Assembly: GCA_028275505.1 (NCBI GenBank)
Contig: JAPWUP010000004.1
Coordinates: 1-61,868 of the forward strand
DNA length: 61,868 nucleotides
Direction of reading: 5' to 3'
Source: Bryobacteraceae bacterium
GTDB taxonomy: Bacteria; Acidobacteriota; Terriglobia; Bryobacterales; Bryobacteraceae
Part shown: piece after piece, positions 8,304 through 53,482 of the stretch
Layout: every line of letters starts with the position of its first letter
Position numbering within the stretch: position 1 is the first letter of the stretch
Made by a program: the position numbers and the translations under genes
The notes under the pieces: generated by a model
The model's input: only the letters and a program-made list of their open reading frames with translations
The model's database searches: none
What the model was told of the DNA's origin: nothing

Positions 8304-8819
8304 ATGGCAGCCGTACCCAGAATCCGACCGGTAGATCCTCAGGGCCTGAACCTCAAGGAATACGTGGTTTCGATCAACCGCGTGACCAAGGTGGTCAAGG
8401 GCGGCAAGAACCTGAGCTTCTCGGCCCTGGTGGTCGTGGGCGATCCCGAGGCCAAAGTGGTGGGCTTCGCCACGGGCAAAGCGCGGGAAGTTCCGGCCGC
8501 GATCAAGAAAGCGATCGAAGCGGCCAAAAAGAACCTGTACAAAATCAACGTCAAGGGTTATACGATCCCGCACGCGGTGGTGGGCCATTTCGGGGCCGGG
8601 GAGGTGCTTCTCAAGCCGGCGCCCGAGGGCAGCGGCGTGATTGCAGGCGCCGTGGTCCGCGCGATGATGGAAGCGGCCGGCATCGCCAACGTGGCCACCA
8701 AGTGCATCGGCTCGCGCAACCCGCACAATGTCGTGCGGGCCACCATGGACGCGCTGATGCAGCTTCGCGACCGTGATCAGGTAGCCGAGATGCGCGGGGT
8801 GTCGCCCGAAAAGCTCTAG
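8304..8819 (+). CDS. rpsE: 30S ribosomal protein S5
   Basis: The 171-residue product contains [19 protein letters not shown], the double-stranded RNA-binding-like start, then GYGKA-type [19 protein letters not shown], and the C-terminal [19 protein letters not shown] and [16 protein letters not shown]. These are S5 hallmarks; S5 affects decoding accuracy. It starts 4 bases after rplR. Confidence 0.98.
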
Positions 8820-8833
8820 CAGGAGGGTGGCCG

Positions 8834-9019
8834 ATGCAGGAGCGCAGGACGATCCGGATCAAGCTGGTTCGAAGCCTGATTGGCAGGCCGGAAAAGCACC
8901 GCCAGATTGTGCGGGGGTTGGGCCTGCGAAGGCTTAACCAGGTAGTGGAGCGGGTGGACACGCCCGCGATCCGGGGCATGATCCGCAAGATCCCGCATCT
9001 GGTCCAGATCGTGGAGTAG
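8834..9019 (+). CDS. rpmD: 50S ribosomal protein L30
   Basis: The 61-residue product reads [32 protein letters not shown], the compact bacterial L30 fold, ending [24 protein letters not shown] gives a strong ribosome-binding site for ATG 8834. Confidence 0.96.
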
Positions 9020-9037
9020 GCCGGCGAGGAGACGACG

Positions 9038-9490
9038 ATGAATTTGAGCCAATTGAAACCTCCCCCGGGGCAGAAGCATGCGCCCAAGCGGGTAGGCCGT
9101 GGCATGGGCAGCGGGCACGGCAAGACGGCGGGCCGCGGCACCAAGGGCCAGAGGTCCATCAGCGGCTTCCGCCAGATGCGCGGCTTCGAAGGCGGCCAGA
9201 TGCCTTTCCATCGCCGCCTGCCCAAGCGGGGATTCACCAACATTTTCAAGAAAGAGTACGCCATCGTCAACGTGGGACGCCTGGAGCAGCTCGAGGGAGA
9301 CACCTTTACGCCGGAGATTCTGCTCGAGCGGCGAGTGATTCGCAAGCTGGGCGACGGCCTGAAGGTGCTGGGTCACGGCGAGCTGACGCGGCCGATCCAT
9401 GTGCGCGCCCACTCGTTCTCCAAATCCGCGCTGGAGAAGATCCAGGCGGCCGGAGGAACGGCGGAAATCATCGAGCCTGGCCGCGGCTAG
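9038..9490 (+). CDS. rplO: 50S ribosomal protein L15
   Basis: The 150-residue product begins [38 protein letters not shown] (its Gly/Lys-rich arm), then [20 protein letters not shown], the L15 signatures. GGCGAGGAG precedes ATG 9038. It lies directly before secY as in most spc operons. Confidence 0.97.
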
Positions 9491-9505
9491 CGGGGGCGGG
9501 AGAGC

Positions 9506-10906: not shown

Positions 10907-10909
10907 ACC

Positions 10910-11566
10910 ATGAGCGATGCACTTATATTCCTGGGACCGCCGGGCTCGGGCAAGGGTACGCAAGCAGTGTTACTGGCGGAGCGCCTCGGGATTCCCCATA
11001 TTTCCACGGGCGACATTCTGCGCGAGCAGGTGGCCGCGGGGACCGAACTGGGGCGGCGCGTCCAGGCGATCATGAGCCGCGGCGATCTCGTGCCCGATGA
11101 ACTGGTGAACGAAATCATGGAGCAGCGCCTGGCGCAGCCGGATTGCGCCCGGGGCTGCATTCTGGACGGCTATCCGCGCACGACAGCGCAGGCGGAGTTT
11201 CTGGCCGGCGTGCTGGAGCAGCGAGGTCTGCGCCCGGTGGTGGTGAATCTCACGGTGGATTACAATGTAATTGTCGCCCGGATTACCGCACGGCGGCAGT
11301 GCCCTGCCTGCGGCGCATCCTATAACCTGATCACCAATCCCCCGCGCGAGGATGAGCGTTGCGATCGCGATGGTACGCCGCTGGTGACGCGGGCGGACGA
11401 TACGGAACCGGTGATCAGGCAGCGGCTGGAAGCCTATGAACGGCAGACGCTGCCGCTGCTGGATTACTACCGCAGGAAAGCGGCCCGTTTCTTCGAGGTT
11501 TCCGGCGACCAGGGCGCGCCCGAGGAGATTGCGCAGCGCATCCTGGCGCTGCTCCGTCAGGCATGA
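10910..11566 (+). CDS. adk: Adenylate kinase (zinc-lid type)
   Basis: The 218-residue enzyme interconverts ATP + AMP and 2 ADP. The P-loop GPPGSGKGT covers residues 9-17, and the AMP-binding GYPRT is present. The long LID domain has C-P-A-C, then a later C and D (ERCDRDG), a Cys3-Asp zinc site as in many long-form adenylate kinases. The gene sits between secY and map as usual. Its stop overlaps the map start (ATGA). Confidence 0.97.
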   Translation: MSDALIFLGPPGSGKGTQAVLLAERLGIPHISTGDILREQVAAGTELGRRVQAIMSRGDLVPDELVNEIMEQRLAQPDCARGCILDGYPRTTAQAEFLAGVLEQRGLRPVVVNLTVDYNVIVARITARRQCPACGASYNLITNPPREDERCDRDGTPLVTRADDTEPVIRQRLEAYERQTLPLLDYYRRKAARFFEVSGDQGAPEEIAQRILALLRQA

Positions 11567-12354
11567 TCGTACGCAAGACGGCGGCGGAACTGGAGAAGAT
11601 GCGGCGGGCGGGCCTGCTGGTGTGGCGGGTACTGAAAGAGCTGGAGGCGATGGTTCAGCCGGGCGTTACCACGATGGATCTGGAGGTGGCGGCCGAACGG
11701 ATGATCCTGGATGCGGGCGCGCGCCCGGCATTCAAGGGATACTACGTGCCGGCCGTGGGACGCCAGTATCCTTACGTGCTGTGCACGTCGGTTAACGAAG
11801 AGATCGTGCACGGCATGCCTTCGGCGAAACGGGTGCTGAAGGAAGGCGACATCGTCTCCATTGACACGGGCGTCGAGCTGGAAGGCTATTACGGGGATTC
11901 AGCCATCACGGTTCCGGTGGGCCGGATCAGTCCGGAGGCGGAGCGCTTGCTGCGGGTGACGCGGGAGGCGCTCGAGCTGGCCATCGAAAAGGTGCGCCAG
12001 GGAAACCGTCTGCTGGATATCAGCGCCACGATCGAGCGGCACGTGACGGCCGCAGGGTTTTCGGTGGTGCGGGACTACGTGGGGCACGGCATTGGGACGC
12101 GCCTGCACGAGGAGCCGCAGGTGCCCAACTACGTGGATCGCCGGAACGAGAACCCGCGGTTGAAAGAAGGCATGGTGCTGGCGATCGAGCCGATGGTGGC
12201 GGCGGGAAGGGCGGAAGTGGCGTTGCGCCCGGATCGCTGGACCGCGGTCACGCGAGACGGCTCCTATGCGGCGCACTTCGAGCACTGCGTGGCAGTGACG
12301 GCCAACGGGCCGTGGGTGTTGACGCGGCCTGAGGAGGCGCCCCATGTCCAGTGA
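11563..12354 (+). CDS. map: Methionine aminopeptidase, type I
   Basis: The 263-residue metallopeptidase removes N-terminal Met. Metal ligands are visible in SIDTGVELEGYYGDSA (two Asp), GHGIGTRLHEEP (His) and AIEPMV (Glu). A late Glu would be expected in the C-terminal FEHCVAVT. There is no N-terminal zinc-finger extension, so this is type Ia. It is coupled to adk and overlaps infA by 11 bases. Confidence 0.97.
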   Translation: MIVRKTAAELEKMRRAGLLVWRVLKELEAMVQPGVTTMDLEVAAERMILDAGARPAFKGYYVPAVGRQYPYVLCTSVNEEIVHGMPSAKRVLKEGDIVSIDTGVELEGYYGDSAITVPVGRISPEAERLLRVTREALELAIEKVRQGNRLLDISATIERHVTAAGFSVVRDYVGHGIGTRLHEEPQVPNYVDRRNENPRLKEGMVLAIEPMVAAGRAEVALRPDRWTAVTRDGSYAAHFEHCVAVTANGPWVLTRPEEAPHVQ

Positions 12355-12592
12355 GGATGCCGGGCGAAAAAGCGGCGCGGTGGTGGCGCGAGTGGTGGAG
12401 TTGCTTCCCCGAGCCACCTATCGCGTGGAAACGGAACATCGTCAGTTGGTTCTGGCGCACGCAGCGCCAGCCACGCAGCGCAATTTCGTGCGTCTGCGCC
12501 CGGGCGACCGAGTGCGGGTGGAGCTTTCACCGCATGATCCGACGCGCGGCCGGATCACAGAATTGTTGGAGCCCGGCGGCGGGCCGCTGTGA
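12344..12592 (+). CDS. infA: Translation initiation factor IF-1 (divergent)
   Basis: The 82-residue product is an S1-type OB fold. It matches IF-1 in [25 protein letters not shown] and [29 protein letters not shown]. It has an 8-10 residue longer N-terminus than standard IF-1 and several substitutions, but the operon position between map and rpmJ supports the call. The start at 12344 lies inside the end of map. Confidence 0.92.
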
Positions 12593-12612
12593 TCGGGCTG
12601 CGGGAGGCAAAG

Positions 12613-12726
12613 ATGAAAGTTCGAGCTTCGGTAAAGAGAATATGCGACAAATGCAAGGTGATCCGGCGCAAAGGCGTAGTCCGGGTCATCTGCGAAAACC
12701 CCAAGCACAAGCAGCGTCAGGGGTAA
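12613..12726 (+). CDS. rpmJ: 50S ribosomal protein L36, zinc-binding
   Basis: The 37-residue protein [17 protein letters not shown]... has the complete zinc site C11, C14, C27, H32 of C+ L36, which binds helix junctions in 23S rRNA. A GGGAGG site lies upstream of ATG 12613. It lies between infA and rpsM as usual. Confidence 0.96.
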
Positions 12727-12736
12727 AGGAGGTGCC

Positions 12737-13120
12737 ATGGCGCGCATAGCAGGTGTGGATTTGCCGCCACGCAAGCGGATCGAGATCGCGCTGACCTACA
12801 TCTACGGCATTGGGCGGTCGCGCTCGAACTCGATCCTTTACCGGGCGGGCGTGGACCCGAACAAGAAGGTGGCGGACCTGACCGAGGATGAGATCAACCG
12901 CATCCGCATGATCATCGAGCAGGAAGGTGCGGTGGAGGGCGACCTGCGCAAGGAGGTCGCCATGAACATCAAGCGGCTGATCGAGATCGGCTCCTACCGC
13001 GGTTTGCGCCACCGGCTGGGACTGCCCGTCCGGGGCCAGCGCACGCACACTAACGCGCGGACGCGCAAGGGCCCGCGTCGCGGCACGATCGCCAACAAGA
13101 AACGGGCAGGCAAGACCTGA
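12737..13120 (+). CDS. rpsM: 30S ribosomal protein S13
   Basis: The 127-residue product begins [30 protein letters not shown] and ends with the basic tail [22 protein letters not shown], as in S13 at the top of the 30S head. AAAGGAGG precedes ATG 12737. Confidence 0.98.
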
Positions 13121-13142
13121 TTCCGGGGCGGGTTAAGCAGAG

Positions 13143-13550
<408 letters not shown>

Positions 13551-13637
13551 TGGTGATGACAGGCAGGCAAGCAGGAGGAAGGCCCGCGAGGGCTGTAAAC
13601 TGCACCGGCCGAATTCGTTGAGGAGGTTAAAAGAACC

Positions 13638-14270
13638 GTGGCGCGTTACCTCGGTCCGGTTTGCCGGCTATGCCGGCGCGAAGGAGTCAAGTTGTTCCTG
13701 AAGGGCGAGCGCTGCCATAGCGAGAAGTGCGCCATCGAGCGGCGCAACTTCCCGCCCGGTCAGCACGGGCGCGAGCGCAAGCCCAAACTCGTCGGTTACG
13801 GATTGCAGCTCCGCGAGAAACAGAAGCTCAAGCGCATTTACGGCTTGCTGGAGCGGCAATTCCGCAACCTGTTCGAGAAAGCGGCCCGCATGAAGGGGCC
13901 GACGGGCGAGAATCTGCTCAGCCTGTTGGAGCGTCGCCTGGACAATGTGGTCTACCGCATGGGACTGGGCACCAGCCGGGCCCAGTGCCGACAACTCGTG
14001 CGGCATGGCCACATCATGGTCAACGGGCGCCGCGTCAACATCCCGTCGTACCTCACGCGGGTCAACGATGTGATCGAAGTGCGTGAGAAGAGCCGCAGCA
14101 ACCCGACGATCCTGGCGGCGCGCGACGCCACGGCCCATGCGCCTGTGCCGAACTGGCTGGAGGTGGACCGCGAGGCCATGCGCGGTCGGGTGATCGCGCT
14201 GCCCACCAAGGAGGACCTGATGAACATTCAGGTCAACGAGCGGCTCATCGTCGAGCTGTACTCCAAGTAG
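13638..14270 (+). CDS. rpsD: 30S ribosomal protein S4, zinc-finger form
   Basis: The 210-residue product starts at a GTG behind a strong GAGGAGG site. The N-terminal zinc knuckle has C9, C12, C26 and C31, followed by the S4 body ([29 protein letters not shown]) and the S4 RNA-binding domain [13 protein letters not shown]4 nucleates 30S assembly. An 87-base gap precedes it, with no clear terminator. Confidence 0.98.
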
Positions 14271-14319
14271 GCTGGGTGCAGCCGGGCCACAGGCCGCCCG
14301 GCAGGAGGAAATCGGATTT

Positions 14320-15402
14320 ATGTACAGGGGCTTTCAGAAACCCAAGAGGCTGGTCGCCAATACCGAGACGCTGACGGATCGCTACGGGATGTTCACCGCC
14401 CAGCCCTTCGAGCGCGGCTGGGGCACGACGATCGGCAACAGCCTGCGGCGAATCCTGCTCAGTTCCATCGAGGGGGCGGCGATCACTGCCGTGCGGATCG
14501 AGGGGGTGCTCCACGAGTTCAGCCCGATCCCCGGCGTGGTCGAGGACGCCACCGACGTCATCCTGAACCTCAAACAGGTGCCGCTGAAGATGACCGGCGA
14601 TGGAGTGCGCACGGCGCGCATTCGCGTGGATCAGCCGGGGGAGGTGCTCAGCGGTCACATCGAGACCGACCCGGACGTCGAGGTGCTCGACCGCTCCATC
14701 CACATCGCCACGGTGAGCGATGGCGGCAAGCTGTACGTGGACATGCGCATCAAGCGTGGGCGCGGTTACGTCAGCGCCGAGCGCAACTTTGACGAGGACC
14801 TGCCGCTGGGCTTCATCCCCATTGACTCGGTCCACTCGCCCGTGCGCAAGGTCAACTTCTACGTCGAAAACGCGCGACTCGGCCAGATCACCGACTACGA
14901 CAAGCTCACGCTGGAGGTGTGGACCAACGGCGCTATCTCTCCCCAGGACGCGATCGCTCAGGCGGCCAAGCTGCTGCGGGATCACATGACCATCTTCATC
15001 AACTTCGAGGAAGTGCCCGAGGCGGTCGAGGAGCCTGCCGAGCGCGCGGCGGACCGGCTCGAGGAGATTCTCAACCGCTCGGTGGACGAACTCGAGCTCA
15101 GCGTGCGCGCGTACAACTGCCTGAAGAACGCCGGCATCCAGACCATCCGCGACTTGGTTCAGAAGACCGAAGCCGAGATGCTGCGCACCAAGAACTTCGG
15201 CCGCAAGTCGCTGAACGAGCTCAAAGAGGTTCTGCGCGGCTTCGGCTTGCAGTTCGGCATGAAGTTCGACGCCCAGGGCCGCCTGATCCTGCCTGCGGCC
15301 CAAGCCGGGGCGCAGGAGCCTGCGCGTGCGGCGGCCCCGCCCGCGGCCGAGGCTCGGGAGGAAACCTCGGGTGCGCCCGAGGCTGGCGCAACCAGCGAGT
15401 AG
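14320..15402 (+). CDS. rpoA: RNA polymerase alpha subunit
   Basis: The 360-residue protein has the assembly NTD (TEKYGKFT-type [23 protein letters not shown] and GAITAVRI-type segments) and the alphaCTD ([39 protein letters not shown], then [10 protein letters not shown]) that contacts UP elements and activators. A tail of about 35 residues rich in Ala, Pro and Glu follows residue 325. AGGAGG precedes ATG 14320. Confidence 0.98.
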
Positions 15403-15412
15403 GGGGTGAGCC

Positions 15413-15871
15413 ATGCGACACAAGCGAGCCGGTTACAAACTGGGCCGACCCATTGACGCCCGCTACATGCTCTTGCGCAACCTGGTCACCAGCGTGATTG
15501 AACAGGAGCGGGTCATTACGACCGTCACCAAGGCGAAGGCTGCCAAGCCGCTGGTGGACAAGATGATCACGCTGGCCAAACGCGACACGTTGCACGCCCG
15601 CCGGCTGGCCGCGGCTTTCCTGAAAACGCCGGCGGCCGTCAGGAAGCTCTTCGACACGCTGGGAGCGCGCTTCGGACAGAGGCAAGGCGGTTACTGCCGA
15701 ATCGTGCGCCTGGGACCGCGCCGGGGTGATGGGGCCGAGCAGGCGATGCTGGAACTGGTAGGCTCCCAGCTCGTCAAGCGGGCAGCCGAACGCGCCAGGC
15801 GTCGTGAGGAACGGCTCCGCCGGATCCGTGAAGGAAGGGAGCCCGACGAAGAAGAGCAGGGCGGGCGTTAA
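15413..15871 (+). CDS. rplQ: 50S ribosomal protein L17
   Basis: The 152-residue product begins MRHKRAGYKLGRPIDARYMLLRNLVTSVIEQERVITT and continues with TKAKAAKPLVDKMITLAKR, as in L17. A charged Arg/Glu-rich C-terminal extension (about 30 residues) follows the core. It is the last gene of the ribosomal superoperon and is followed by a hairpin at 15886-15911. Confidence 0.97.
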   Translation: MRHKRAGYKLGRPIDARYMLLRNLVTSVIEQERVITTVTKAKAAKPLVDKMITLAKRDTLHARRLAAAFLKTPAAVRKLFDTLGARFGQRQGGYCRIVRLGPRRGDGAEQAMLELVGSQLVKRAAERARRREERLRRIREGREPDEEEQGGR

Positions 15872-42583: not shown

Positions 42584-43671
42584 AAGTCGGATACTGCGCA
42601 CCCATGCCCCCGGCGCCCACCGGCGTGGCGGATTACGCTTTCCGTCTGCTTCAGGAACTGCGCCGCTTCGGCGCCGTCGAAGTCAACGCAAGCCGCGCGG
42701 ACGTGTTCCTCTACCACTTGGGCAACAATCAGCTTCATCGGGAAATCTACCGCCGCGCTCTGGAGCGACCGGGTGTGGTGGTTCTGCACGACGCGGTTTT
42801 GCACCACTTCTTCCTGGGCGCACTCGACCGTCAGCGATACATCGAAGAATTCGTTTACAACTACGGCGAGTGGGCGCGGGGGTTGGCGGAAAGATTGTGG
42901 GAGGACCGCGCCCGCTCGGCGCAGGATCCGCGTTACTTCCGCTACCCGATGCTGCGGCGGATCACCGAGGTTTCCCGGGCTGTGGTGGTCCACAATCCGG
43001 CCGCGGCCCGCATGGTGCGGGAGCACTGCGCGGCGGCCCGGGTGGTGGAGGTGCCGTTCCCGGTATGGCGGCCCGCTGTCGCACCCGAGTGTGAGCTGGT
43101 TCGCTGGCGCAAGCAGGCAGGCCTCGGCTTGCGAACCGTGCTGTTCGGTGTGTTCGGCCACCTGCGCGAGTCCAAGCGGCTGGGCACGGTCTTGCGCGCC
43201 TGGTGCGAAGTGCAACGCGCCAGGGTTCCGGCGGCGCTGGTGCTCGCAGGAGATTTCCAATCCGAGGAACTGGAGCGCGCGGTGGCGCCGCTGCTGGAAG
43301 GCGTGATTCGCGCCGAGCGCCTTTCCGACGCCGAATTCTGGAAGCTGGTCGCTGCCTGCGACGTCGTCGTGAACCTGCGTTACCCTGCCGCGGGCGAGAC
43401 CTCTGGCGTGGGCATGACCGCGATGGGGCTGGGCAAGGCGGTCCTGTTCAGCGCCACGGAAGAGACCTCGATGTTGCCGCCCGATGCCTGCCTGCGCATC
43501 GAACCGGGGATCGGGGAGCGGGCGTCGCTGGTCGAGCACATGATCTGGCTGGCCACGTTTCCCGGGCACGCGCGTGAGATCGGGCGGCGCGCAGCGGTGT
43601 GGGTGCGCGAGCATCACGCGCCGGAGGTTGTCGCCGAGCGTTACTGGGAACTGTTGCGGGCGCTGATTTGA
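42580..43671 (+). CDS. GT4-type glycosyltransferase
   Basis: The 363-residue GT-B protein begins MKVGYCAPMPPAPTGVADYAFRLLQEL and has VVVLHDAVLHHF, VFGHLRESKRLGTVLRA, LVLAGDF and the nucleotide-sugar segment VVNLRYPAAGETSGVGMTAMGLGKAVLFS, typical of family 4. The acceptor is unknown. It is coupled to yggS. Its stop codon lies within the -35 element of the promoter for the TonB-dependent receptor gene. Confidence 0.85.
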   Translation: MKVGYCAPMPPAPTGVADYAFRLLQELRRFGAVEVNASRADVFLYHLGNNQLHREIYRRALERPGVVVLHDAVLHHFFLGALDRQRYIEEFVYNYGEWARGLAERLWEDRARSAQDPRYFRYPMLRRITEVSRAVVVHNPAAARMVREHCAAARVVEVPFPVWRPAVAPECELVRWRKQAGLGLRTVLFGVFGHLRESKRLGTVLRAWCEVQRARVPAALVLAGDFQSEELERAVAPLLEGVIRAERLSDAEFWKLVAACDVVVNLRYPAAGETSGVGMTAMGLGKAVLFSATEETSMLPPDACLRIEPGIGERASLVEHMIWLATFPGHAREIGRRAAVWVREHHAPEVVAERYWELLRALI

Positions 43672-43697
43672 CACGGGGCTGGTAGCACGATTATGAT
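43668..43697 (+). promoter_or_regulatory. Promoter of the receptor/CobN-like operon
   Basis: TTGACA (43668-43673) and TATGAT (43692-43697) are separated by 18 bases, a strong sigma-70 pattern. The TGA stop of the upstream gene lies inside the -35. The ATG at 43704 is 6 bases after the -10, so the transcript would begin on the start codon. No Fur-box-like palindrome was clear by eye. Confidence 0.7.
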
Positions 43698-43703: not shown

Positions 43704-45953
43704 ATGCGCCCAACCCGCGCTCTCTTCCTCCTCATCTTCCCGCTGCTCGCCGCAGCCGACCAGCGCCCCACAAATGCGGCGCAGGACAATCCCTTCTTCC
43801 TCAAGCAGGAGATCACAGTCACCGCAACCCGCACCGAGGTCGAGCCTTCCAAGGCGCCCGTTTCCGCCTCCACGGTGGTTGCGGACGAGATCCGCCTGCG
43901 CAACGTCCAGGTGGTGGATCGCGCGCTGGACGGCGTTCCGGGCGTCCACCTCAGCCGAGGAAAGGGATTTCAGGACACGCTGGCCGGCGTGGGCATGCGC
44001 GGCTTTTCCGGACGTGGCAGCCTTCAGAGCCGCACTCTCGTGCTGCTCGACGGGCAACCGCTGAACGATCCTTACACGGCGGGAGTTGCCTGGACCGCGC
44101 TTCCCGTGGACGAAGTCGAGCGCGTGGAGGTCGTGCGCGGCCCGTTCTCTGCTCTTTACGGCAGCAATGCGATGGGCGGCGTCATCCAGATCCTCAGCAA
44201 ACCGGTGGATCGCCGGCGCCTGGACCTCCGCGGAGACTACGGCGCCCAGGAAACTTTCCGCTACGGCGCGCGGATCGCGGATCGTTTCTTCGACCGCTGG
44301 GGCCTTTCCCTGAGTTACGATCGCCTCCAGAGCGGAGGCTATCCCTCCCAATTAGTAACTTCTGCCGGAACGGTGGGTACAGGCGGAACACCGGTCACAG
44401 GTTTCATTCCCACGCTTACCACGACCGGCGCCCGCACGTTTATTCTCGGTGATGCCGGAAAGAATTCGTGGGAGCAGACCGCCTGGCGCATCCGCTCCGA
44501 CTACGCTTTCAACGAGCGAACCAGCCTGAGCTTTCAGTATCTTCGCCAGGCCTCCTGGTACGGCTACGACGCTTACCACACTTACCTGCGGACTCTGGAC
44601 GGGCGTCCCTTCGATTCGGGTATGGCCTCGATTTTCGCCGATGGTGTGAGCCGCCGCCTCAGTGTGACACCGAGCATGTTTTTGCCCGGGGACGGGGGGA
44701 CGCTTTCGCGGCTGGCGTCGGTCAGACTTTACCGATCGTTGTCGGCAAACACGCGCATCCGGGTGGGTGCGGGCATCATGGATGCGCCAATGTCCTACTA
44801 CTCCACGCCGGGCGCTGGCGCTACGCTGGCCGGCGGGCCAGGCACGATCAGTGACCGTCCCGGCCGCGCCTGGTTTGGCGAAACCCAGCTCAACTGGGAC
44901 CCCGGCAGCGCGCACTCGGTTACGGCCGGCGCCGATCTGCGGCGGGACGCCTCCCGCGCCGTGGAAAATGCGGTTCCCAATTACGCCCGCCGAAACGAGT
45001 CCGCCACACTGACTTACTGGGCTGAGGGTAAGTCGTATACCCAGGGAATTTACGCCCAGCATCAGTGGCGTGCGGCCGAAAGGATTTTAGTGGTCTGGGG
45101 TGGGCGCTACGATTACTGGCGCACTTTCGAAGGCAAGATCCAGTTGAGCCCCTCGTCGCCTCTTGGTTACTACGAACCGCGCTCCAATCACGCGCCGAGC
45201 GGCAAAGCGGCAATCCTTTTGCGGGCGCCCGCTGGAATCGCGCTGCGCGCCAGCGCGGGCAACGCCTACCGGAATCCTACGATTTACGACCTTTACCGCA
45301 CCTGGCGCTCTTCCGCGGGAACCATTTTCGCGTCGAATCCGGATTTGAAGCCGGAGAAAGTAATCGCCTGGGAGGCTGGGGCAAACCGGCGCTGGACGGG
45401 TGGCTTCGAGCTCGACGCCGTGTTCTTCGACAACCACGTGCGCGATCTGATCTACCGCTCCACCGATTTCAGTCGCGACCCGCAAGGCCGCTATCGGCCT
45501 GTCATCAACGCCGCCAGAGCACACAGCCGGGGCTGGGAAGTGTCGGCGCGGGCTCCGCTTCTAAGCTGGCTCTTTGTGCGCACGGCCTACACCTGGACGA
45601 AAGCCGAGATCACGGACAACCCCGTGGCGCCGGCGACGATGGGCAAGCGCATTCCTTATGTTCCCTCGCATGCCGCTTCCGCCAGCCTTTTCACCGTGCG
45701 CAAGCGGTGGAGCGCTTCTTTTACCGGGCGGTACGTTTCTTCTATGTTTTCTACCGACACCAATGCGGACACCACCAAGGGGGTCTACGGCGCCTTCGAT
45801 CCGTTCTTCGTGGCCGACGCCAGCGTCTCGTTCGATTTGACGCGGTTCCTCGTCTTCCAGCTCAGCGTGGATAACTTGCTGAATCGCGTTTACTACAGTT
45901 ACTACCCCGTCCCGGGACGCATGGCGCTGGCCGGGCTGCGGATCCGCCTATGA
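43704..45953 (+). CDS. TonB-dependent receptor (heme/cobalamin-type candidate)
   Basis: The 749-residue protein has a signal peptide (ALFLLIFPLLAAA), a TonB box-like EITVTATR, a plug domain with DRALDGVPGVHLSRG, RTLVLLDGQPLND and VERVEVVRGPFSALYGSNAMGGVI, then a 22-strand-type barrel. YRNPTIYDLYRTW followed by SNPDLKPEK resembles the FRAP/NPNL-type region of heme receptors, but BtuB-like receptors share it. It overlaps the CobN-like gene by 4 bases (ATGA), so both serve one substrate, probably a tetrapyrrole. Confidence 0.9.
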   Translation: MRPTRALFLLIFPLLAAADQRPTNAAQDNPFFLKQEITVTATRTEVEPSKAPVSASTVVADEIRLRNVQVVDRALDGVPGVHLSRGKGFQDTLAGVGMRGFSGRGSLQSRTLVLLDGQPLNDPYTAGVAWTALPVDEVERVEVVRGPFSALYGSNAMGGVIQILSKPVDRRRLDLRGDYGAQETFRYGARIADRFFDRWGLSLSYDRLQSGGYPSQLVTSAGTVGTGGTPVTGFIPTLTTTGARTFILGDAGKNSWEQTAWRIRSDYAFNERTSLSFQYLRQASWYGYDAYHTYLRTLDGRPFDSGMASIFADGVSRRLSVTPSMFLPGDGGTLSRLASVRLYRSLSANTRIRVGAGIMDAPMSYYSTPGAGATLAGGPGTISDRPGRAWFGETQLNWDPGSAHSVTAGADLRRDASRAVENAVPNYARRNESATLTYWAEGKSYTQGIYAQHQWRAAERILVVWGGRYDYWRTFEGKIQLSPSSPLGYYEPRSNHAPSGKAAILLRAPAGIALRASAGNAYRNPTIYDLYRTWRSSAGTIFASNPDLKPEKVIAWEAGANRRWTGGFELDAVFFDNHVRDLIYRSTDFSRDPQGRYRPVINAARAHSRGWEVSARAPLLSWLFVRTAYTWTKAEITDNPVAPATMGKRIPYVPSHAASASLFTVRKRWSASFTGRYVSSMFSTDTNADTTKGVYGAFDPFFVADASVSFDLTRFLVFQLSVDNLLNRVYYSYYPVPGRMALAGLRIRL

Positions 45954-48900
45954 AGGCGCTTGCGCTTCTGGCCGCCTGGGCGGCGCTGGCCTCGGCCGAG
46001 GAGCCGTTGCGCATCGCCGTACTTACTCGCCTCACCCAAGTGATGCCCGAGGCCGAGAAACGGTTTGTCCAGCGTTGGGGACCGAACCGGATCCACCTGA
46101 TTTATGGCGACTTCGAGGCGCCGCCGGAAGGCTGGAAACAGGCCGACGTCATCTTCACGTACCTGATGCCACGCGAGGCTGCCGCGCGTCTTGCGCCCGG
46201 CTTCCGCGAGGCGATGGCTCGCGGCGCCAGAATCCTGGCTCACTGGCCCGAACCAGCGCGACGCCAGGCCGGCATCGAGCAGGATGAAACGCTGCTGGCC
46301 ACCGCCGTCCAATATTGGACATACGGTGGCGCAGAGAACATCGCGCGCTGCCTCGCTTTTCTCTATGTGCGCCTGGGCGGACGACAGGGAATCCCGGTCG
46401 AGCCTCCCGAGCCCACGGTTACTGTCGGCATCTATCATCCCGAGGCGCCCGGGCCTTTCGTGCAATTGCGAGACTACCTCGATTGGTATCGCCGCTCGAA
46501 AACGGAACCCGCGGACGCTCCTGTCGTGGGAGTGCTTTTCTATCACACTTACTTCAAGAATCGGGACCTGGCCCACATTGACGCGCTGATCGCCGCCCTC
46601 GAGAAGCACGGCATGGTTCCGCTGGCCGTCTTCGGCTGGCCCCCGCCCGAGGCCGAGCCCTTGCTCGTGCAGGATGGACGGGTCGTGGTGGACGGAATCT
46701 TTGCGCTCAATCTTGGCTTTGCGCGGCCCGCGGATCAGGAATTCTTCAGTCGCCTCAACGCGCACGTGATCAACCTGATGACCACGCGTCAGAGCCGAAC
46801 GGATTGGGCCGAAGCGCCGCTGGGCTTGCGATCCGACCAGATCGCCTTGCAAGTGGCCTCGCCCGAGCGCGCCGGCGCTACCGAGCCGATTACTTTCGCC
46901 GCCACGCAACGCAGCGCGGACGGCAAATCGCAGGTCACGGTTCCGATCGCGGAGCGCGTGGAAGCGGCTGTGCGTCGCATGGCTCGCTGGATCGCACTGC
47001 GCCGCAAGCCCAACGCGGAAAAACGCGTAGCCATTCTTTACTACAACAACCCGCCGGGCAAGGGTAACATCGGCGCCAGTTACCTCGATGTGCCGCGCAG
47101 CCTGGCGGCGATCCTGACGCGTCTCCGCGAAGAAGGCTATCGGACTGGGAACGCCGTTCCCGGCGAACAGGAGTTACTCCGTATGCTGGAGGCGGGCGGT
47201 CGCAACGTGGAAGAGTGGGCGCCGGGGGAGCTGGACCGGATCGTCAACCAGGGCGACGCGGTGCTCATTCCCATCGCGCAGTACCGGCGATGGCTCGCCG
47301 AAACGCCGCTTGCATTTCGCGAACGCCTGCTGGCTGCCTGGGGACCGCCCGAAAAATCGCGCCTGATGACTATCCGCTCGCGCGATGGCGAGCCGTTCTG
47401 CGTCTTTCCCGGCTTGCGCTTCGGCAACATTTTCGTCGGGCCGCAGCCCTTGCGCTCTTCGTTCGAGATGGCCGGCAAGACGCAGCACGATACGACCATT
47501 CCGCCGCCGCACTGTTACGTGGCCGCGTACTTGTGGCTGCGCCACGTGTTTGGCGCCGACGCCATCGTGCACCTGGGCCGTCACGGCACGCTGGAGTTTC
47601 TGCCCGGCAAAAATGTGGGCCTGGCAGGCTGGGATGCTGCCGAGGTTCTTCTCGGGGACACGCCCTCCCCGTACTTTTACATCGTGGACGGGGGTGGCGA
47701 ATCCACCACCGCCCGCCGCCGCGGCCACGCCACCTTGATCAGCCACCTGACGCCGCTGTTGACCCGCGGAGGCGCCCAGGACGAGTTTCGTGCGCTGCGC
47801 GAGGCGCTGCATGAAATCGAGAAAGTCGGCGGTGACTCTCCGGGTCTGCGGGCCGAATACGAGACCAAGGTGCGCCAGGAAGTCCGCAGGCTCGGCCTGG
47901 AAAGCCAGCTCGGTTTCGATCTGGACCACACGCCGTGGCAAGAAGTAATCGAGCGAGTAACTGACTTTCTGGAGCAGACCGAAGCCGGCCCGATTCCGCT
48001 AGGAATTCACGTGCTCGGGCGCTTGCCCCCGGAAGACCTCCAGATCGAGGCCCTGACCGAGTTTCTCAAGTCCGGCTTCGATCCCGGGGAGCTGACACGG
48101 TTGGCAGATAAGCTGGAACAATGGGCCCGGGAGCTGGCCGCAGGCGCCGAACCGGCGGTTGGCCCGGAGTGGAAAGGCTCGCTGCGGGACAAGATCCTGA
48201 CGCAACTGCGAGCTGGCGCCCGTTGGATCGCCGACCTGCGCGTGTCGGCTGCCCTGGAACTTACTAACTTCGTCCGCGCCCTCCGTGGTGAGTACCTGCC
48301 GAGCGGGCCTTCCGGGGACCCGCTGCGGGCGCCCGCCGCGCTGCCCAGTGGCCGCAACCTGCACGATTTCGACCCTTCGCTCATCCCCACGCCTGCGGCT
48401 TGCGAGCTGGGCAAGAAGCTCGCCAACCAGTTACTGGAGGAACAACGGCAACGCACCGGAAAGTATCCCGAGAAAGTAAGTCTGGTGCTCTGGTACGGCG
48501 AGACCATCCGTCATCAAGGCGCCATGGAATGCCAGGCGCTCTATCTCATGGGAGTGGAGCCGCAGTGGAATTCGCGCGGGGTGGTGGACGGGCTGCGCCT
48601 GATCCCGGAATCCGAGCTCGGACGCCCGCGGGTGGACGTAGTGATCACGGTGGCCGGAATTTACCGGGACGGCTTCCCGGACAAGATGCTGCTCCTGGAT
48701 CGTGCGGCGCGCCTGGTCCAGCAAGCGGGCGATAACGCGCTCAGCCGGAATACGCGGCGCATTGCCGAGCAATTGCGGCGTCAGGGCGTGGCGGCGGATG
48801 TGGCTGAGAAAGCGGCCTCGGCGCGCATCTTCGGCCCCGCGCCGGGCGACTATGGCGCGGGCATCGCCAACTTGATCAAGCAGAGCCGCGACGCCGGCAA

Positions 48901-49927
48901 CACGGACCTGATCGTCGAGGCCTACCTCCGGCACAACAATTTCGCCTATGGCGAACAGGTCTGGGGAGAAGCGGTGCCCCATGCGCTGGCTTCTCATCTC
49001 AAAGGCAACGAGGTCGTGGTTCATTCCCGGAGCACGAATCTTTACGGGGTCACCGACAACGATGACTTTTTCGATTTCGCAGGCGGGCTGAACCTGGCTA
49101 CCAAAGTGGTCAACGGCGGACGGCCCCCCGAGTTCTACGTGGCCAACCTTCGCGCCCGCGGCCGGGAGCGCCTGCAAGATTTCCGGGCGTTTCTCGCAGC
49201 GGAAGTGAGCAGCCGTTTCTGGAACCCGAAATGGATTCGCCACATGCAGGCGGCCGGTTATAGCGGCGCCCGCGAGATTGCTGATCAGTTGGAAAACCTC
49301 TACGGCTGGCAGGCGACCACTCCGGACAAGGTCGGTTCAGCTTACTGGGAGCGGACTTACCAGGTGTATGTCGAGGACAGGCACGGGCTGGGGCTGCGCG
49401 AATTCTTCGACAAACAGAACCCGCACGCGCGGCAACTCATGCTGGCCCGTCTGCTCGAAGTGGACCGTCAGGGCAGTTACCGGTTTGCACCCGAACAAAG
49501 AGCCAGACTGCTGGCCGAATACGCCCGCTCGATCGCACGCTTCGGCATCGCCTGTTCGGCGAACACTTGCGGCAACCGCAGGTTGCTGGCCGCCGTGCTC
49601 CGCGGCGTGCGCTCGATGAGGGTCTTGAATGCCGCCGAGCTGGGCGCCTTCCGGCAGCGGCTTCGGGAGGCGCTGGCTTCAGTACGCCCGGCAGGCGGGA
49701 ACATGGTTGGGCGGGCGCGCGCGGGCCCCGGCCGGATCCGCATGGGGAACTCCAATCCGCTATCGCTCATCGAGGTCCCCATGCCCCGGTTCGACCGGGT
49801 CGAGGTAATCATCCCGTTCGGGCTGGCCCTTTTCGGCTTGTTTCTCGCATCGAGCGGTAGCCTCGGCGCGCTGCAAGCGCTCTGGTTCAGGCGGCGCGGG
49901 GCAGACATCGAGACCCTGAAGCTGTAG
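45950..49927 (+). CDS. CobN/HmuS-like tetrapyrrole chelatase-family protein, membrane-anchored
   Basis: The 1325-residue protein is homologous to the large CobN/ChlH chelatase subunit along most of its length. Landmarks include HLGRHGTLEFLPGKNVGL (H541, H545), PPHCYVAAYLWLRHVFGADA, EYLRHNNFAYGEQVWG-like and DDFFDFAGGLNLATKVV. Unlike cytoplasmic CobN it begins with a signal peptide (residues 1-16, cleavage after ASA) and ends in a single hydrophobic helix (about 1286-1306) followed by RRR. No CobS/CobT or ChlI/ChlD partner is adjacent. It is coupled to a TonB-dependent receptor. As far as I recall, this matches HmuS-type heme dechelatases. The function is inferred, not shown. Confidence 0.85.
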   Translation: MKALALLAAWAALASAEEPLRIAVLTRLTQVMPEAEKRFVQRWGPNRIHLIYGDFEAPPEGWKQADVIFTYLMPREAAARLAPGFREAMARGARILAHWPEPARRQAGIEQDETLLATAVQYWTYGGAENIARCLAFLYVRLGGRQGIPVEPPEPTVTVGIYHPEAPGPFVQLRDYLDWYRRSKTEPADAPVVGVLFYHTYFKNRDLAHIDALIAALEKHGMVPLAVFGWPPPEAEPLLVQDGRVVVDGIFALNLGFARPADQEFFSRLNAHVINLMTTRQSRTDWAEAPLGLRSDQIALQVASPERAGATEPITFAATQRSADGKSQVTVPIAERVEAAVRRMARWIALRRKPNAEKRVAILYYNNPPGKGNIGASYLDVPRSLAAILTRLREEGYRTGNAVPGEQELLRMLEAGGRNVEEWAPGELDRIVNQGDAVLIPIAQYRRWLAETPLAFRERLLAAWGPPEKSRLMTIRSRDGEPFCVFPGLRFGNIFVGPQPLRSSFEMAGKTQHDTTIPPPHCYVAAYLWLRHVFGADAIVHLGRHGTLEFLPGKNVGLAGWDAAEVLLGDTPSPYFYIVDGGGESTTARRRGHATLISHLTPLLTRGGAQDEFRALREALHEIEKVGGDSPGLRAEYETKVRQEVRRLGLESQLGFDLDHTPWQEVIERVTDFLEQTEAGPIPLGIHVLGRLPPEDLQIEALTEFLKSGFDPGELTRLADKLEQWARELAAGAEPAVGPEWKGSLRDKILTQLRAGARWIADLRVSAALELTNFVRALRGEYLPSGPSGDPLRAPAALPSGRNLHDFDPSLIPTPAACELGKKLANQLLEEQRQRTGKYPEKVSLVLWYGETIRHQGAMECQALYLMGVEPQWNSRGVVDGLRLIPESELGRPRVDVVITVAGIYRDGFPDKMLLLDRAARLVQQAGDNALSRNTRRIAEQLRRQGVAADVAEKAASARIFGPAPGDYGAGIANLIKQSRDAGNTDLIVEAYLRHNNFAYGEQVWGEAVPHALASHLKGNEVVVHSRSTNLYGVTDNDDFFDFAGGLNLATKVVNGGRPPEFYVANLRARGRERLQDFRAFLAAEVSSRFWNPKWIRHMQAAGYSGAREIADQLENLYGWQATTPDKVGSAYWERTYQVYVEDRHGLGLREFFDKQNPHARQLMLARLLEVDRQGSYRFAPEQRARLLAEYARSIARFGIACSANTCGNRRLLAAVLRGVRSMRVLNAAELGAFRQRLREALASVRPAGGNMVGRARAGPGRIRMGNSNPLSLIEVPMPRFDRVEVIIPFGLALFGLFLASSGSLGALQALWFRRRGADIETLKL

Positions 49928-49949: not shown

Positions 49950-49978
49950 TTGACAGCCCGGGTATGGTCGCCTAGAAT
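49950..49978 (+). promoter_or_regulatory. Sigma-70 promoter of the Oar-like receptor
   Basis: A perfect TTGACA (49950-49955) stands 17 bases from TAGAAT (49973-49978). The predicted start near 49985 gives a leader of about 30 bases that ends with the ribosome-binding site AGGGGGTTGCT before ATG 50015. It is the best promoter in the window. Confidence 0.8.
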
Positions 49979-50014: not shown

Positions 50015-53000
50015 ATGAGGCGTCTAACATCGAACTTACTGGTCTTGGGAATCCTCTGCTTGTTCGCGGGGACCGCTTGGGCCCAGGAGGTCCGGGCCAC
50101 CATCACCGGGCTGATCACGGATCCCAGCGGAGCCCCGGTGGCAGGCGCTACCGTTACCGTCACCAACGTCGCTCAGAACGTATCCTTCACCGTAACCAGC
50201 AACGAGAGCGGTAACTACGTCACCCCGTTCCTGGCGCCGGGCGTCTACCGGCTAACCGTCGAGCAACCCGGATTCAAGCGCTTCGTACGCGAAAACATCG
50301 TCTTGCAGGCGCAGGACAAGCTCCGGCTGGACGTGACGCTGGAACTCGGTCAGTTGACCGAGAGCGTTACGGTGCGTGAATCGGTTTCGCTGCTTCAGAC
50401 GGAAACGGCCACGCGCTCGCAGGTCATCGCCAACGAGCTGATCAGCATGGTTCCGACCCAGGGCCGCAACCCCTTCCAGATCGCGTGGGCGGCGGCTGGG
50501 GTGATCAAGGCGGGCGACTGGCGTTACCTGCGCTCCTTCGACATCGCCGGCACCTCGGGTATCTCGATCAACGGCGGCAAGAACAAGGAAAACGAGGTGC
50601 TGCTGGACGGCATCAGCGACGTGCGCGCGGACCGCACCGTGATTCACGTTCCCACGATGGAGGCGGTGCAGGAGTTCCGCGTGCTGACCAACACTTATGA
50701 CGCCCAGTACGGGCGCACGGGCGGCGGCATCATCACGATCGTCACCAAGTCCGGGACCAATGAATTCCACGGCACTTTGTTCGAGCACTTCCAGAACGAC
50801 AAACTCAACGCCAACACCAGCGAGTTGAACCGCGGCGGTCAGCCGCGCCCGCCCTTCCACATCAACCAGTTCGGCTTCCAGCTTGCCGGCCCCGTCTATT
50901 TGCCCAGGCTGTACGACGGGCGCAACCGGCTCTTCTGGATGCTGAACTACGAAGGAATGCGGCAGCGTACGGGCGATCCCGGCGCGCGCACCTTCCCGCT
51001 GATGGAGTGGCGAACGGGCGATTTCTCCACGCTTTATAACGCCCAGGGACAGCCCGTGATCATCTACGATCCGCTGACCACCACGCGCGATGGTCTGCGC
51101 CAGCCCTTCGCCGGCAACCGCCTGCCGCCCAGCCGGATCCACCCGATCGCGCTCGAGGTCTTCAAATACTATCCGCCGCCCAACTGGCAGGGTGAGGGTC
51201 CGGCGCACATCAACAACTACATCTTTCGCTCGCGCTGGAACTGCGGCTTCGATCAGTGGACCGGGCGCATGGACTTCGTGCTCAACTCCAAGAATACCTT
51301 CTACTTCCGCTACGGCCAGAACCCCTTCGAGGAATACCGTGCCTTGGTGTGGCCCACGCCGAACCCCGCCGAGCCCACGGGTAACGCGCCGCTCAAGCGC
51401 AACGGGCGCACCTGGGTGTTCGACTGGACCTCCACTCTCAGCCCGCGCATGACCTTCAACCTGCGCGCCGGCCTGAACCGCTGGGAGGAAACCACAGGCA
51501 ACAGTTACGGCGCCGGCTTCGATCCGAGGCGGCTCGGGTTCGATCCCGCTCTGGTCGCCCAGTTCACCCGGCTGCAGTTCCCGCGTTTCGATCTGGGTAT
51601 CTACCAGGCGGCGGGCGCTGACCGCCTGCTGAACACCTCCACCAACGACACGTACAGCTTGCAGCCCAACGCCGGGCTGGTGGTGTCGCGCCACTATATG
51701 AAGTTCGGCTTCGAGGCGCGGCAATACAAGGACAACATCGCCAACCCGGGCATGGCCAGCGGGCGGTACAGCTTCGGCAGGAACTGGACGCAGGCCAACG
51801 CGCTGCGCGCCGATGCGGTCTCGGGCAACGAGATCGCCACCTTCCTGCTCGGTTACCCGACCAGCGCTTGGGTGGACCGCAACATTGATCCCACCTTCCT
51901 GCACCGCTATTACGCCGTCTTTTTCAACGATGACTGGAAGGTTACGCCTCGGCTCACGCTCAACCTCGGCCTGCGCTGGGACTACGAAACGCCCAACTAC
52001 GAGCGGTTCAACCGCATGGTGCGCGGCTTCGATTGGAACGCGCCCAGCCCGATCGCCGACAAGGTCAAGGGCTTGACCCTCAAGGGCGCGGTGTTGTTTG
52101 CCGGGGTGGGCGGCCAGCCGCGTTACGTCTTCGAACCGGACCGCAACAATTTCCAGCCGCGCCTGGGCGTCGCGTACCGCGTCAGCGATCGCTGGGTGGT
52201 GCGGGGCGGCTACGGTCTCTACTATCTGGGCCAGAACGAGAACGGCTCGACGCAAGGCTTCAGCCGCCAGACCGTGGCCGTGGTGAGCACCGATGGCGGC
52301 CTCACGCCGGCCGTCACCCTCACCAACGCTTTCGCCAACCTGCCCGGCGGCCGCCTGCTCGAACCGATCGGCTCCAGTCAGGGCGCCGCCAGCTTCCTGG
52401 GCGAAAGCATACCGGGCCAGTACTTCGACCGGCCTCTGCCCTTCTCCCACCAGTACTCCTTTGACATCCAGCACGAGCTGCCCGGCAATGTGCTGGTCGA
52501 GGTCGGCTACGTCGGCAACGCCCAGCGCAAGCTGCCGGTGAACGTGGGGCTGAACTACATCCCCGCATCCGAACTCGGCCGGCGCAAGCCTGATGGAACC
52601 ATTGACACCGCTTACTACACCGAGCGCGTGCCCAACCCCATGGCGGGTTTGATCCCGGCCAACCCCACGCTCAACGCACCCACCATTCCGCGCCAGAACC
52701 TCATGGTGGCCTTCCCGCAGTACGCCAGCGTCAGCCTGAACAACGTGCCTATCGGCAAGATGCGCTACCACGGCTTCCAGTCCAAGGTCACCAAGCGCTT
52801 CTCCCACGGATTGAGCTTCCTGGCCAGCTACGGGATCATGAAGAACCTCGAGCAGGTCTCTTTGCTCAACGCGCAGGATTTCGTGCTGGCCCGGCCTGAG
52901 GACACCAAACTGGAGAAGCGCTCCGCTGGCACTGTGGACATTCCTCAGAAGTTCGCCATCGTGGGGATTTACGAGTTGCCGTTCGGGCGGAACCGGCGCT

Positions 53001-53482
53001 TCGGCGCCCACTGGCCGCGCGCTGTGGATCATGTGCTCGGCGGCTGGCGGCTGAACTGGGACATCACCTACCAGAGCGGATGGGTGGTGGCGTATCCAAA
53101 CGCCAAACAGGTGCGTCCCGGCTCAGCCAAGCTCAAGAACCCCACGCCCAATCGCTGGTTCGATACCTCGCTGTGGGACGACCCCGTCACCGGCCGGCGC
53201 GTGCCGCCGCAGGAGCCGTACACGCTGCGGGACTTCCCGTCTCTCTTCAGCGACGTGCGCGTGCCCGGCTACAAGAACTGGGATGCTTCGCTGACCAAGA
53301 TTTTCGCGCTGCAAGAGCGGATGAATCTCGAGTTCCGCTTCGAGATGATCAACGCCTTCAATCACCCCTGGTTTGCCAATATCGCTTCGGTGAACGTCAC
53401 CGATCCCCGTTTCGGCCAGCTCGATCCGACGCAGCGCAACCTGCCGCGCAACATCAAGCTGGTCTTGATGCTGAAGTGGTGA
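50015..53482 (+). CDS. Oar-like TonB-dependent receptor with carboxypeptidase-regulatory domain
   Basis: The 1155-residue outer-membrane protein has a signal peptide (LLVLGILCLFAGTAWA), then a carboxypeptidase-regulatory-like beta domain at about residues 25-110 (ATITGLITDPSGAPVAGATVTVTN, APGVYRLTVEQPGF). A plug follows with NGGKNKENEVLLDGISDV and EFRVLTNTYDAQYGRTGGGIITIVTKSGTNEFHG, then a large barrel ending NIKLVLMLKW. This type is greatly expanded in Acidobacteriota. The ligand is unknown. It has its own strong promoter and a terminator at 53486-53526. Confidence 0.93.
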   Translation: MRRLTSNLLVLGILCLFAGTAWAQEVRATITGLITDPSGAPVAGATVTVTNVAQNVSFTVTSNESGNYVTPFLAPGVYRLTVEQPGFKRFVRENIVLQAQDKLRLDVTLELGQLTESVTVRESVSLLQTETATRSQVIANELISMVPTQGRNPFQIAWAAAGVIKAGDWRYLRSFDIAGTSGISINGGKNKENEVLLDGISDVRADRTVIHVPTMEAVQEFRVLTNTYDAQYGRTGGGIITIVTKSGTNEFHGTLFEHFQNDKLNANTSELNRGGQPRPPFHINQFGFQLAGPVYLPRLYDGRNRLFWMLNYEGMRQRTGDPGARTFPLMEWRTGDFSTLYNAQGQPVIIYDPLTTTRDGLRQPFAGNRLPPSRIHPIALEVFKYYPPPNWQGEGPAHINNYIFRSRWNCGFDQWTGRMDFVLNSKNTFYFRYGQNPFEEYRALVWPTPNPAEPTGNAPLKRNGRTWVFDWTSTLSPRMTFNLRAGLNRWEETTGNSYGAGFDPRRLGFDPALVAQFTRLQFPRFDLGIYQAAGADRLLNTSTNDTYSLQPNAGLVVSRHYMKFGFEARQYKDNIANPGMASGRYSFGRNWTQANALRADAVSGNEIATFLLGYPTSAWVDRNIDPTFLHRYYAVFFNDDWKVTPRLTLNLGLRWDYETPNYERFNRMVRGFDWNAPSPIADKVKGLTLKGAVLFAGVGGQPRYVFEPDRNNFQPRLGVAYRVSDRWVVRGGYGLYYLGQNENGSTQGFSRQTVAVVSTDGGLTPAVTLTNAFANLPGGRLLEPIGSSQGAASFLGESIPGQYFDRPLPFSHQYSFDIQHELPGNVLVEVGYVGNAQRKLPVNVGLNYIPASELGRRKPDGTIDTAYYTERVPNPMAGLIPANPTLNAPTIPRQNLMVAFPQYASVSLNNVPIGKMRYHGFQSKVTKRFSHGLSFLASYGIMKNLEQVSLLNAQDFVLARPEDTKLEKRSAGTVDIPQKFAIVGIYELPFGRNRRFGAHWPRAVDHVLGGWRLNWDITYQSGWVVAYPNAKQVRPGSAKLKNPTPNRWFDTSLWDDPVTGRRVPPQEPYTLRDFPSLFSDVRVPGYKNWDASLTKIFALQERMNLEFRFEMINAFNHPWFANIASVNVTDPRFGQLDPTQRNLPRNIKLVLMLKW

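Follow-up and report, generated by a model that had tools for sequence, protein, structure and literature searches.

HmuS of Bacteroides thetaiotaomicron (structure 9d26) is an exported, membrane-anchored member of the class I chelatase family that removes iron from heme and is encoded in the hmuYRSTUV operon. Its description names as defining features two cleft histidines (His538 and His1209), a heme in the head/neck region bound by Met79 together with His254, an insertion rich in Met, and anchors; the H538A substitution abolishes turnover (PMC12583661). A second set of systems, BtuS, appears in Rocha et al. as a third CobN-related type credited to Rodionov 2003 (PMC6460266). Here we describe a two-gene locus related to these systems in a stretch of 61,868 nucleotides (hereafter, the window; positions 1 to 61,868 of contig JAPWUP010000004.1, assembly GCA_028275505.1) from a soil acidobacterium of the family Bryobacteraceae. 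The locus comprises a gene for a TonB-dependent outer-membrane receptor of 749 amino acids (43704..45953, + strand) and a gene for a class I chelatase homologue of 1325 amino acids, predicted to be exported and C-terminally anchored (45950..49927, + strand). We consider it probable, at roughly 60%, that the two genes form a unit whose task, outside the cytoplasm, is the handling of corrinoids (vitamin B12-type cobalt tetrapyrroles); this substrate is suggested by the relatives of the pair.

Several related systems have been noted. According to the Figure 8 legend of the HmuS paper, most of the other chelatase-superfamily members in bacteria and archaea cannot be reliably annotated (PMC12583661), and the paper on Porphyromonas gingivalis HmuS raises the possibility of a different function in other clades of HmuS (PMC13227078). 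Further papers mention two BtuS proteins in Methanosarcina (PMC10846266), riboswitch-led hmu-like operons of Bacteroides that may concern cobalamin (Mesle et al., PMC10100974) and a CobN-TonB cluster on a Geobacter lovleyi plasmid, for which a cobalamin link was inferred and no CobS/CobT was found by the authors (PMC3403914).

The window protein shares with HmuS the chelatase family, the predicted export and anchoring, a TonB receptor gene upstream and the superfamily histidine (His538 of HmuS, H545 here), but differs in lacking His1209, His254 and the Met-rich insertion, in lacking HmuY, ExbB and DUF2149 partners, in belonging to a separate clade and in having some relatives tied to B12; moreover, only two genes stand in place of the hmuYRSTUV operon. 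The BtuS and riboswitch-led hmu-like operons likewise contain exported CobN homologues, some of them behind a cobalamin riboswitch, but the Bacteroides versions have longer operons and are likened to the window by published description only (PMC6460266, PMC10100974). The cluster of Trichlorobacter (Geobacter) lovleyi (locus L165) has an Asp-type exported CobN homologue and a receptor homologous to that of the window over nearly its full length, but its operon also contains DUF2162, ExbB, DUF2149, ExbD and TonB genes and tandem riboswitches, whereas the window has two genes only. CobN, the large subunit of aerobic cobaltochelatase, has the same domain family and a DxDD motif at the second ligand position; unlike the window protein it is cytoplasmic, needs ATPase partners, has HxGKHG in place of HxGRHG and falls in a separate clade.

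Searches of the open-licence literature turned up no paper that describes the two-gene form or the His/Asp split reported below. An earlier reading of the window, made from the sequence alone, held that the two-gene form looks new; this is supported in part, for the arrangement itself, but related CobN homologues behind riboswitches or in B12 clusters had already been noted in Bacteroides (PMC10100974) and G. lovleyi (PMC3403914). We regard the pair as a newly described, pared-down form of a type of system that is known but so far uncharacterised.

Two Clades of Exported Chelatase Homologues

The window protein matches the Pfam CobN-Mg_chel domain at 994 bits over residues 121-1182 (profile positions 2-1088 of 1090). 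It scores 850 bits against the NCBIfam CobN equivalog, the cut-off of which is 1248, and the other eight CobN/BchH models that it matched also remain below their cut-offs. Among solved structures, the best full-length match is HmuS 9d26 (463 bits), followed by CobN (440) and ChlH (429), and HmuS is the top match of the C-terminal half alone.

Two positions of the HmuS cleft can be read in alignments. His538 of HmuS, in HFG(T/A)HG, is retained as H545 in the HLGRHG motif (residues 541-546; 47570..47587, + strand), although this histidine is superfamily-wide and so a weak marker. His1209, in LSLDHxxEFMGG, is replaced by Asp1039 in DNDDFFDFAGG, within the DNDD motif (residues 1036-1039; 49055..49066, + strand). 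Of the two conserved histidines proposed for alignment in the sequence-only reading, H545 corresponds to the catalytic His538; the second axial histidine of HmuS, His1209, is the one replaced by aspartate. The first heme site of HmuS is also missing: at His254 (HGR) the window protein reads FAR with no HG, and Met79 lies outside the aligned blocks. The Met-rich insertion is absent, as about 73 residues separate two aligned blocks that are about 245 residues apart in HmuS, and no Met-rich stretch is present.

In an alignment of 93 proteins, each longer than 900 amino acids, the residue at the HmuS-1209 position follows the HG heme-site motif. It is His in all 36 exported proteins with HG, and Asp (36) or Glu (5) in 41 of the 42 exported proteins without HG, the remaining one being degenerate. 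The same position is Asp in 12 of 12 cytoplasmic CobN proteins, which act on corrinoids, and in one archaeal protein, and His in both BchH-like proteins, which act on porphyrins.

Trees calculated without the diagnostic columns and with near-copies left out divide the exported proteins in the same way. Support by the Shimodaira-Hasegawa-like approximate likelihood-ratio test (SH-aLRT) is 97 for the His clade and 96 for the Asp clade in a tree of 71 rows, and 98 for each in a tree of 73 rows that covers more phyla. The window protein falls within a subclade of the Asp clade, termed type A here, with SH-aLRT 100; these two trees bear out the earlier view that it is closer kin to HmuS than to cytoplasmic CobN. 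H545 and D/E1039 are retained in the type-A proteins read. Asp-type relatives occur in four phyla, Acidobacteriota, Pseudomonadota, Thermodesulfobacteriota and Bacteroidota. An exception is a protein of Azospirillum brasilense (L167), which belongs to the Asp clade even though its diagnostic column reads His; it has no HG motif. No residue was read for L072 (broken) or for L131, L132 and L158 (partial); the first three of these were assigned by similarity to type A, which comprises 33 loci.

Two observations concern the distribution of these types. One acidobacterial genome (G206) encodes exported homologues of both kinds, HmuS-type with His and type B with Asp (L040, 7316-12121; L039, 7480-11496), which suggests that the two probably do different jobs. 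In genome G717, a degenerate homologue (L137, 4040-8008) is aligned without the superfamily histidine and still lies downstream of a receptor of the window's family; it was placed in neither the Asp/Glu nor the His class.

Predicted Export and Anchoring

The predicted signal peptide comprises residues 1-16, MKALALLAAWAALASA, followed by EE (45950..45997, + strand), and a C-terminal membrane anchor is predicted at about residues 1284-1306, with its hydrophobic helix at 1284-1302, followed by RRR (49799..49867, + strand). Both were judged by eye and by a Kyte-Doolittle scan, that is, by hydropathy only, and both recur in relatives. A hydrophobic start is found in all 26 full-length type-A proteins, the window's included, in a test biased by a gene-calling script that favoured hydrophobic starts and under which 2 of 15 cytoplasmic CobN, archaeal and BchH proteins also exceeded 2. 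The C-terminal hydropathy peak is at least 1.6 in 23 of the 26 proteins and 1.34-1.55 in the remaining three, compared with at most 0.96 in the 15 cytoplasmic CobN, archaeal and BchH proteins. The signal peptide and C-terminal helix proposed from the sequence alone thus recur at the same ends of type-A relatives, and the protein falls outside the cytoplasmic CobN clade. Before the anchor lies a conserved cysteine pair, C1202-x4-C1207 (49553..49570, + strand), which could form a periplasmic disulphide.

B12 Genes and Riboswitches around the Relatives

The genomic context of the relatives points to corrinoids. A B12 link was defined as a cobalamin riboswitch or a B12-specific gene within about 5 kb, and riboswitches were sought in 65 whole genomes and in the named or key loci. 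Genes of the relatives were called by a codon-bias script, which produced some wrong starts and antisense calls, and key loci were rechecked by tblastn. A scan with two specific peptide patterns yielded 3 loci only, and whole-genome searches many more. Neighbours are partly unseen at five loci on short contigs (L117, L121, L128, L131 and L132).

B12 links were found at 11 of 48 Asp/Glu-type loci and at 1 of 39 His-type loci (Fisher p 0.005, which is optimistic because the loci share descent and their independence is overstated). The 11 consist of 9 of 33 type-A loci, 0 of 10 type-B loci and 2 of 5 others. The scanned genomes contain 30 of the type-A loci; with uniform placement, 0.15 riboswitches would be expected no more than 5 kb from these, and 3 were seen, one of them 4.97 kb away. 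The B12-linked loci are scattered over several deep type-A branches. Neither the CobW-like gene 4-5 kb from L133, L136 and L170, nor the BtuF-like genes near type-B loci, nor the riboswitches about 9 kb from L035 and L036 were counted.

In genome G757 (L130/L164), the type-A gene is the last of a same-strand, riboswitch-led cluster and overlaps the CobC gene by 4 bp; the cluster also encodes a BtuB-like receptor, a BtuF-like protein, ATR, CbiB, a CobD-like aminotransferase, CobT and CobS, and a further product that, from its start, is presumably CobU-like. A riboswitch lies directly upstream of the type-A gene at L083 (G349) and about 0.16 kb past the type-A stop codon at L032 (G061). The type-A gene faces cobC, cobT, cobD and cbiB at L076 (G462), and precedes cobW, cobN and a ChlID-like gene on two Cupriavidus replicons (L092, L169). 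At L088 (G433), it lies beside CbiZ, CbiB and ATR genes, with a cytoplasmic CobN and a ChlID-like gene farther along the same contig.

CbiZ is adjacent in two more cases. The type-A gene overlaps a CbiZ gene with a signal-peptide-like start (11758-12948) by 4 bp at L126 (G690), and adjoins one at L078 (G468; 6398-7633), the start of which is uncertain: the two genes either overlap by 14 bp or are about 16 bp apart with a signal-peptide-like internal start. An exported-looking CbiZ beside an exported CobN homologue could possibly reflect periplasmic corrinoid remodelling. Outside type A, the Trichlorobacter lovleyi operon is led by two tandem cobalamin riboswitches, and a single, weaker one (40.2 bits, cut-off 31.5) is present on a Comamonadaceae plasmid.

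Two other kinds of neighbour were seen. PepSY_TM-like proteins, a group that includes ferric-siderophore reductases, are encoded near four type-A loci (L053, L077, L078 and L117; Pfam-tested for L077 only) and are a possible lead to a reductase. A protein family (c31) beside L032 and L083 has no Pfam match; we take its sequence to resemble VWFA-like domains common in Acidobacteria, and it was given no weight.

The Receptor

The upstream gene product has Plug and TonB_dep_Rec domains by Pfam, the plug (PF07715) covering residues 49-160 (43848..44183, + strand). A receptor of this family is encoded directly upstream in 18 of 32 type-A loci, and a different TonB receptor family occupies that place in 5 more. 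The window receptor is 35% identical over 733 amino acids (400 bits) to the receptor of the riboswitch-led Trichlorobacter operon, which groups with the window's receptor family with support 99. By comparison, its matches to HmuR of Bacteroides finegoldii (66 bits) and to the BtuB-like receptor of its own genome (72 bits) are limited to the plug. Heme is ligated in most heme receptors by a His in the FRAP/NPNL box, some lacking it (PMC3792355); the window's receptor family has a box-like region, in which no conserved His was found among 19 members.

The NCBIfam equivalog for B12 receptors (TonB-B12) has a cut-off of 599.7, far above the 121 bits of the window receptor; the genome's own riboswitch-led BtuB-like receptor scores best on that profile, and its 156 bits are also below this cut-off. 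In a type-A subclade with Glu at position 1039 (L086-L088, L128 and L129), the chelatase homologue lies beside a different TonB receptor family, indicating that receptor and chelatase homologue can be re-partnered.

The Probable Two-Gene Unit and Its Host Genome

The receptor and chelatase-homologue frames overlap by 4 bp in an ATGA (45950..45953, + strand), as the sequence-only reading had stated. A promoter-like TTGACA-18-TATGAT (43668..43697, + strand; consensus match only) ends 6 bases upstream of the receptor start, and a promoter-like TTGACA-17-TAGAAT (49950..49978, + strand; also a consensus match) precedes the next gene and marks the end of the unit. These are the only two promoter-like matches in 12 kb, a count in line with chance (1.4 expected). 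Both sites recur at the same places in a congener (G531), the one before the receptor as TTGAGA-17-TATAAT, and a promoter-like match precedes the receptor in 1 of 10 other relatives. Because the sites before the receptor and before the next gene recur in the congener, the receptor and chelatase homologue probably form their own two-gene transcription unit. The third gene, for an Oar-like receptor (50015-53482), was considered as a member and rejected: a promoter-like site of its own precedes it, and among type-A loci the congener (L072) is the only one in which it comes directly after the pair. At L072 (7714-13941), the receptor is in three frames and a TAG lies inside the chelatase gene, which would represent decay in the congener or an assembly error.

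None of 12 other window proteins run against Pfam matches a chelatase family, and 2 of the 12 have no match at all, which agrees with the earlier statement that no CobS/CobT- or ChlI/ChlD-like gene lies beside the pair. The form without HmuTUV-type genes is likewise sustained: DUF2149 is absent from all 16 genomes whose type-A loci lack the module, and is absent from the window's genome. Farther upstream, window positions 1-15871 presumably hold a ribosomal protein S10/spc/alpha cluster with secY, adk and map, from the starts and order of its genes.

A single PF02514 gene is present in the genome, an assembly of 4.66 Mb in 392 contigs with 98.9% completeness. A genome-wide search with PF01078, the ChlI/ChlD ATPase family, found no ChlI/ChlD-type gene (CobS/CobT-specific profiles were not searched); its matches are one full-length in a 533-amino-acid frame, which we take to be ComM-like, and three partial in AAA+-sized frames. 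CbiC was found in none of 38 genomes tested, the window's included, and CbiB, present in 9 of 24 genomes tested, is absent from it. Five B12-binding domains are over cut-off in this genome, and another contig contains a riboswitch followed by genes for a BtuB-like receptor, a BtuF-like protein and ATP-binding cassette (ABC) components. These findings suggest that the organism takes up B12 rather than making it, an argument against a function of the pair in de novo synthesis.

As a separate observation, cytoplasmic CobN occurs in genomes without CbiC, at L110 (3251-9213, next to a ChlID-like gene) and L033 (6855-11570, followed by PF01078 matches). The cobaltochelatase in such genomes may serve salvage rather than synthesis.

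Proposed Function and Alternatives

The pair is best read as a stripped-down, periplasmic unit for corrinoids and as a variant of the little-studied BtuS/HmuS-like family. The receptor would carry a corrinoid across the outer membrane, and the exported, helix-anchored chelatase homologue would hold it in the central cleft of the class I chelatase fold, between H545 and D1039. As no ChlI/ChlD-type ATPase partner was found, the action at the corrinoid metal would be ATP-independent and would take place outside the cytoplasm. Insertion or exchange of the metal (cobalt) is a first guess, prompted by the apparent salvage of B12 in these genomes; the alternatives are metal removal and transfer to BtuF-type proteins. 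That the chelatase homologue performs a metal step of any kind is put forward tentatively, at less than even odds, and it is in this step alone that two of the alternatives below depart from the corrinoid reading. The same tentative standing applies to the fuller proposal that the pair is a minimal ATP-free periplasmic machine that changes the metal of imported corrinoids, a cobalt (or nickel) counterpart of HmuS with a His-to-Asp difference in the cleft.

Several observations, besides the shared descent of the loci, weigh against corrinoid handling. The window locus itself has neither a riboswitch nor a B12 gene beside the pair, and no B12 link was found in its own five-member subclade (the window, L073-L075 and L125) or within 5 kb of the 10 type-B loci. 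The window's receptor family is encoded directly upstream at 18 loci, and only 2 of these (L032, L076) are B12-linked; the B12-linked L088 has the other receptor family. The window receptor scores higher on the heme profile (TonB-hemin, 168 bits) than on the B12 profile, both far below cut-off, and nine other receptors, seven belonging to the window's family and two to the other, score best on heme (7) or siderophore (2) and in no case on B12. The N-terminal half of the window protein alone matches ChlH best, with HmuS last of seven matches. A predicted structure, made from a 4-row alignment, has a mean predicted local distance difference test score (pLDDT) of 47.7, too poor to view the cleft, and was used for no claim. 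The absence of CbiB makes the benefit of metal insertion unclear. Finally, the Azospirillum protein with His at the diagnostic column (L167, 9608-14664) has a cobalamin riboswitch just downstream and nikR nearby, and an Asp-type homologue on the Runella slithyformis plasmid pRUNSL01 (L166, 1836-22597) lies inside a NiFe-hydrogenase maturation cluster, with a receptor, a gene annotated as urease accessory protein, ExbB and DUF2149 as neighbours. This nickel-hydrogenase setting means that the metal may not always be cobalt and points to possible roles of the family with further metals.

A variant inside the corrinoid reading dispenses with catalysis: the fold would dock corrinoids from the receptor and pass them to BtuF/BtuCD. 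It draws on the same context evidence and fits the lack of an energy source at the locus, and a genome that seems to import complete B12, without CbiB and CbiC, would have little use for metal chemistry. However, the retention of H545 and D/E1039 in type A suggests selection for chemistry, and the protein is unusually large for a docking role; this variant is rather unlikely.

Alternatively, the protein might be a periplasmic harvester of cobalt or nickel, taking the metal out of a tetrapyrrole or another chelate in the way that HmuS takes iron, a proposal that overlaps corrinoid handling if the chelate is a corrinoid. The kinship with HmuS, the Runella hydrogenase cluster, nikR near the Azospirillum homologue and an energy-coupling factor (ECF) transporter annotated for cobalt near the Trichlorobacter one are in its favour. 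It is nevertheless unlikely: with B12 apparently imported and not made, and CbiC found in none of the 38 genomes, there is no evident need for free cobalt and its harvest is hard to motivate, and cobalt removal would destroy the imported vitamin.

The sequence-only reading favoured heme, with the receptor importing it and the anchored protein removing iron in the periplasm in the manner of HmuS. The full-length match to HmuS, which is likewise exported and anchored, the superfamily histidine, the receptor's best score on TonB-hemin and the PepSY_TM-like neighbours all accord with that view. However, His1209, His254 and the Met-rich insertion are missing, some relatives have B12 genes as neighbours, the HmuS-type proteins group in a clade of their own and the receptor family has no conserved His in its FRAP/NPNL-like region. 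On these residues, the context and the receptor's kin, which point to corrinoids, heme was set aside as the principal view; it is an improbable substrate here, and the heme interpretation is probably wrong.

An ordinary cytoplasmic CobN for B12 synthesis, misread as exported, would explain the Pfam family and the CobN-like Asp motif, but is ruled out for practical purposes by the anchor and hydrophobic start that recur in type A, the separate clade, scores below all nine CobN/BchH equivalog cut-offs, and a genome in which no ChlI/ChlD-type gene and no CbiC were found.

Significance

Read together, one alignment column and the HG motif assign nearly all exported members of the superfamily to either a heme-type or an Asp-type clade, the latter having ties to B12 in three phyla. 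The two-gene form in the window is the smallest system in which action on corrinoids could be tested. Should the Asp type act on corrinoids, bacteria unable to make B12 would carry out cobalt chemistry, or would have a new docking step, outside the cytoplasm.

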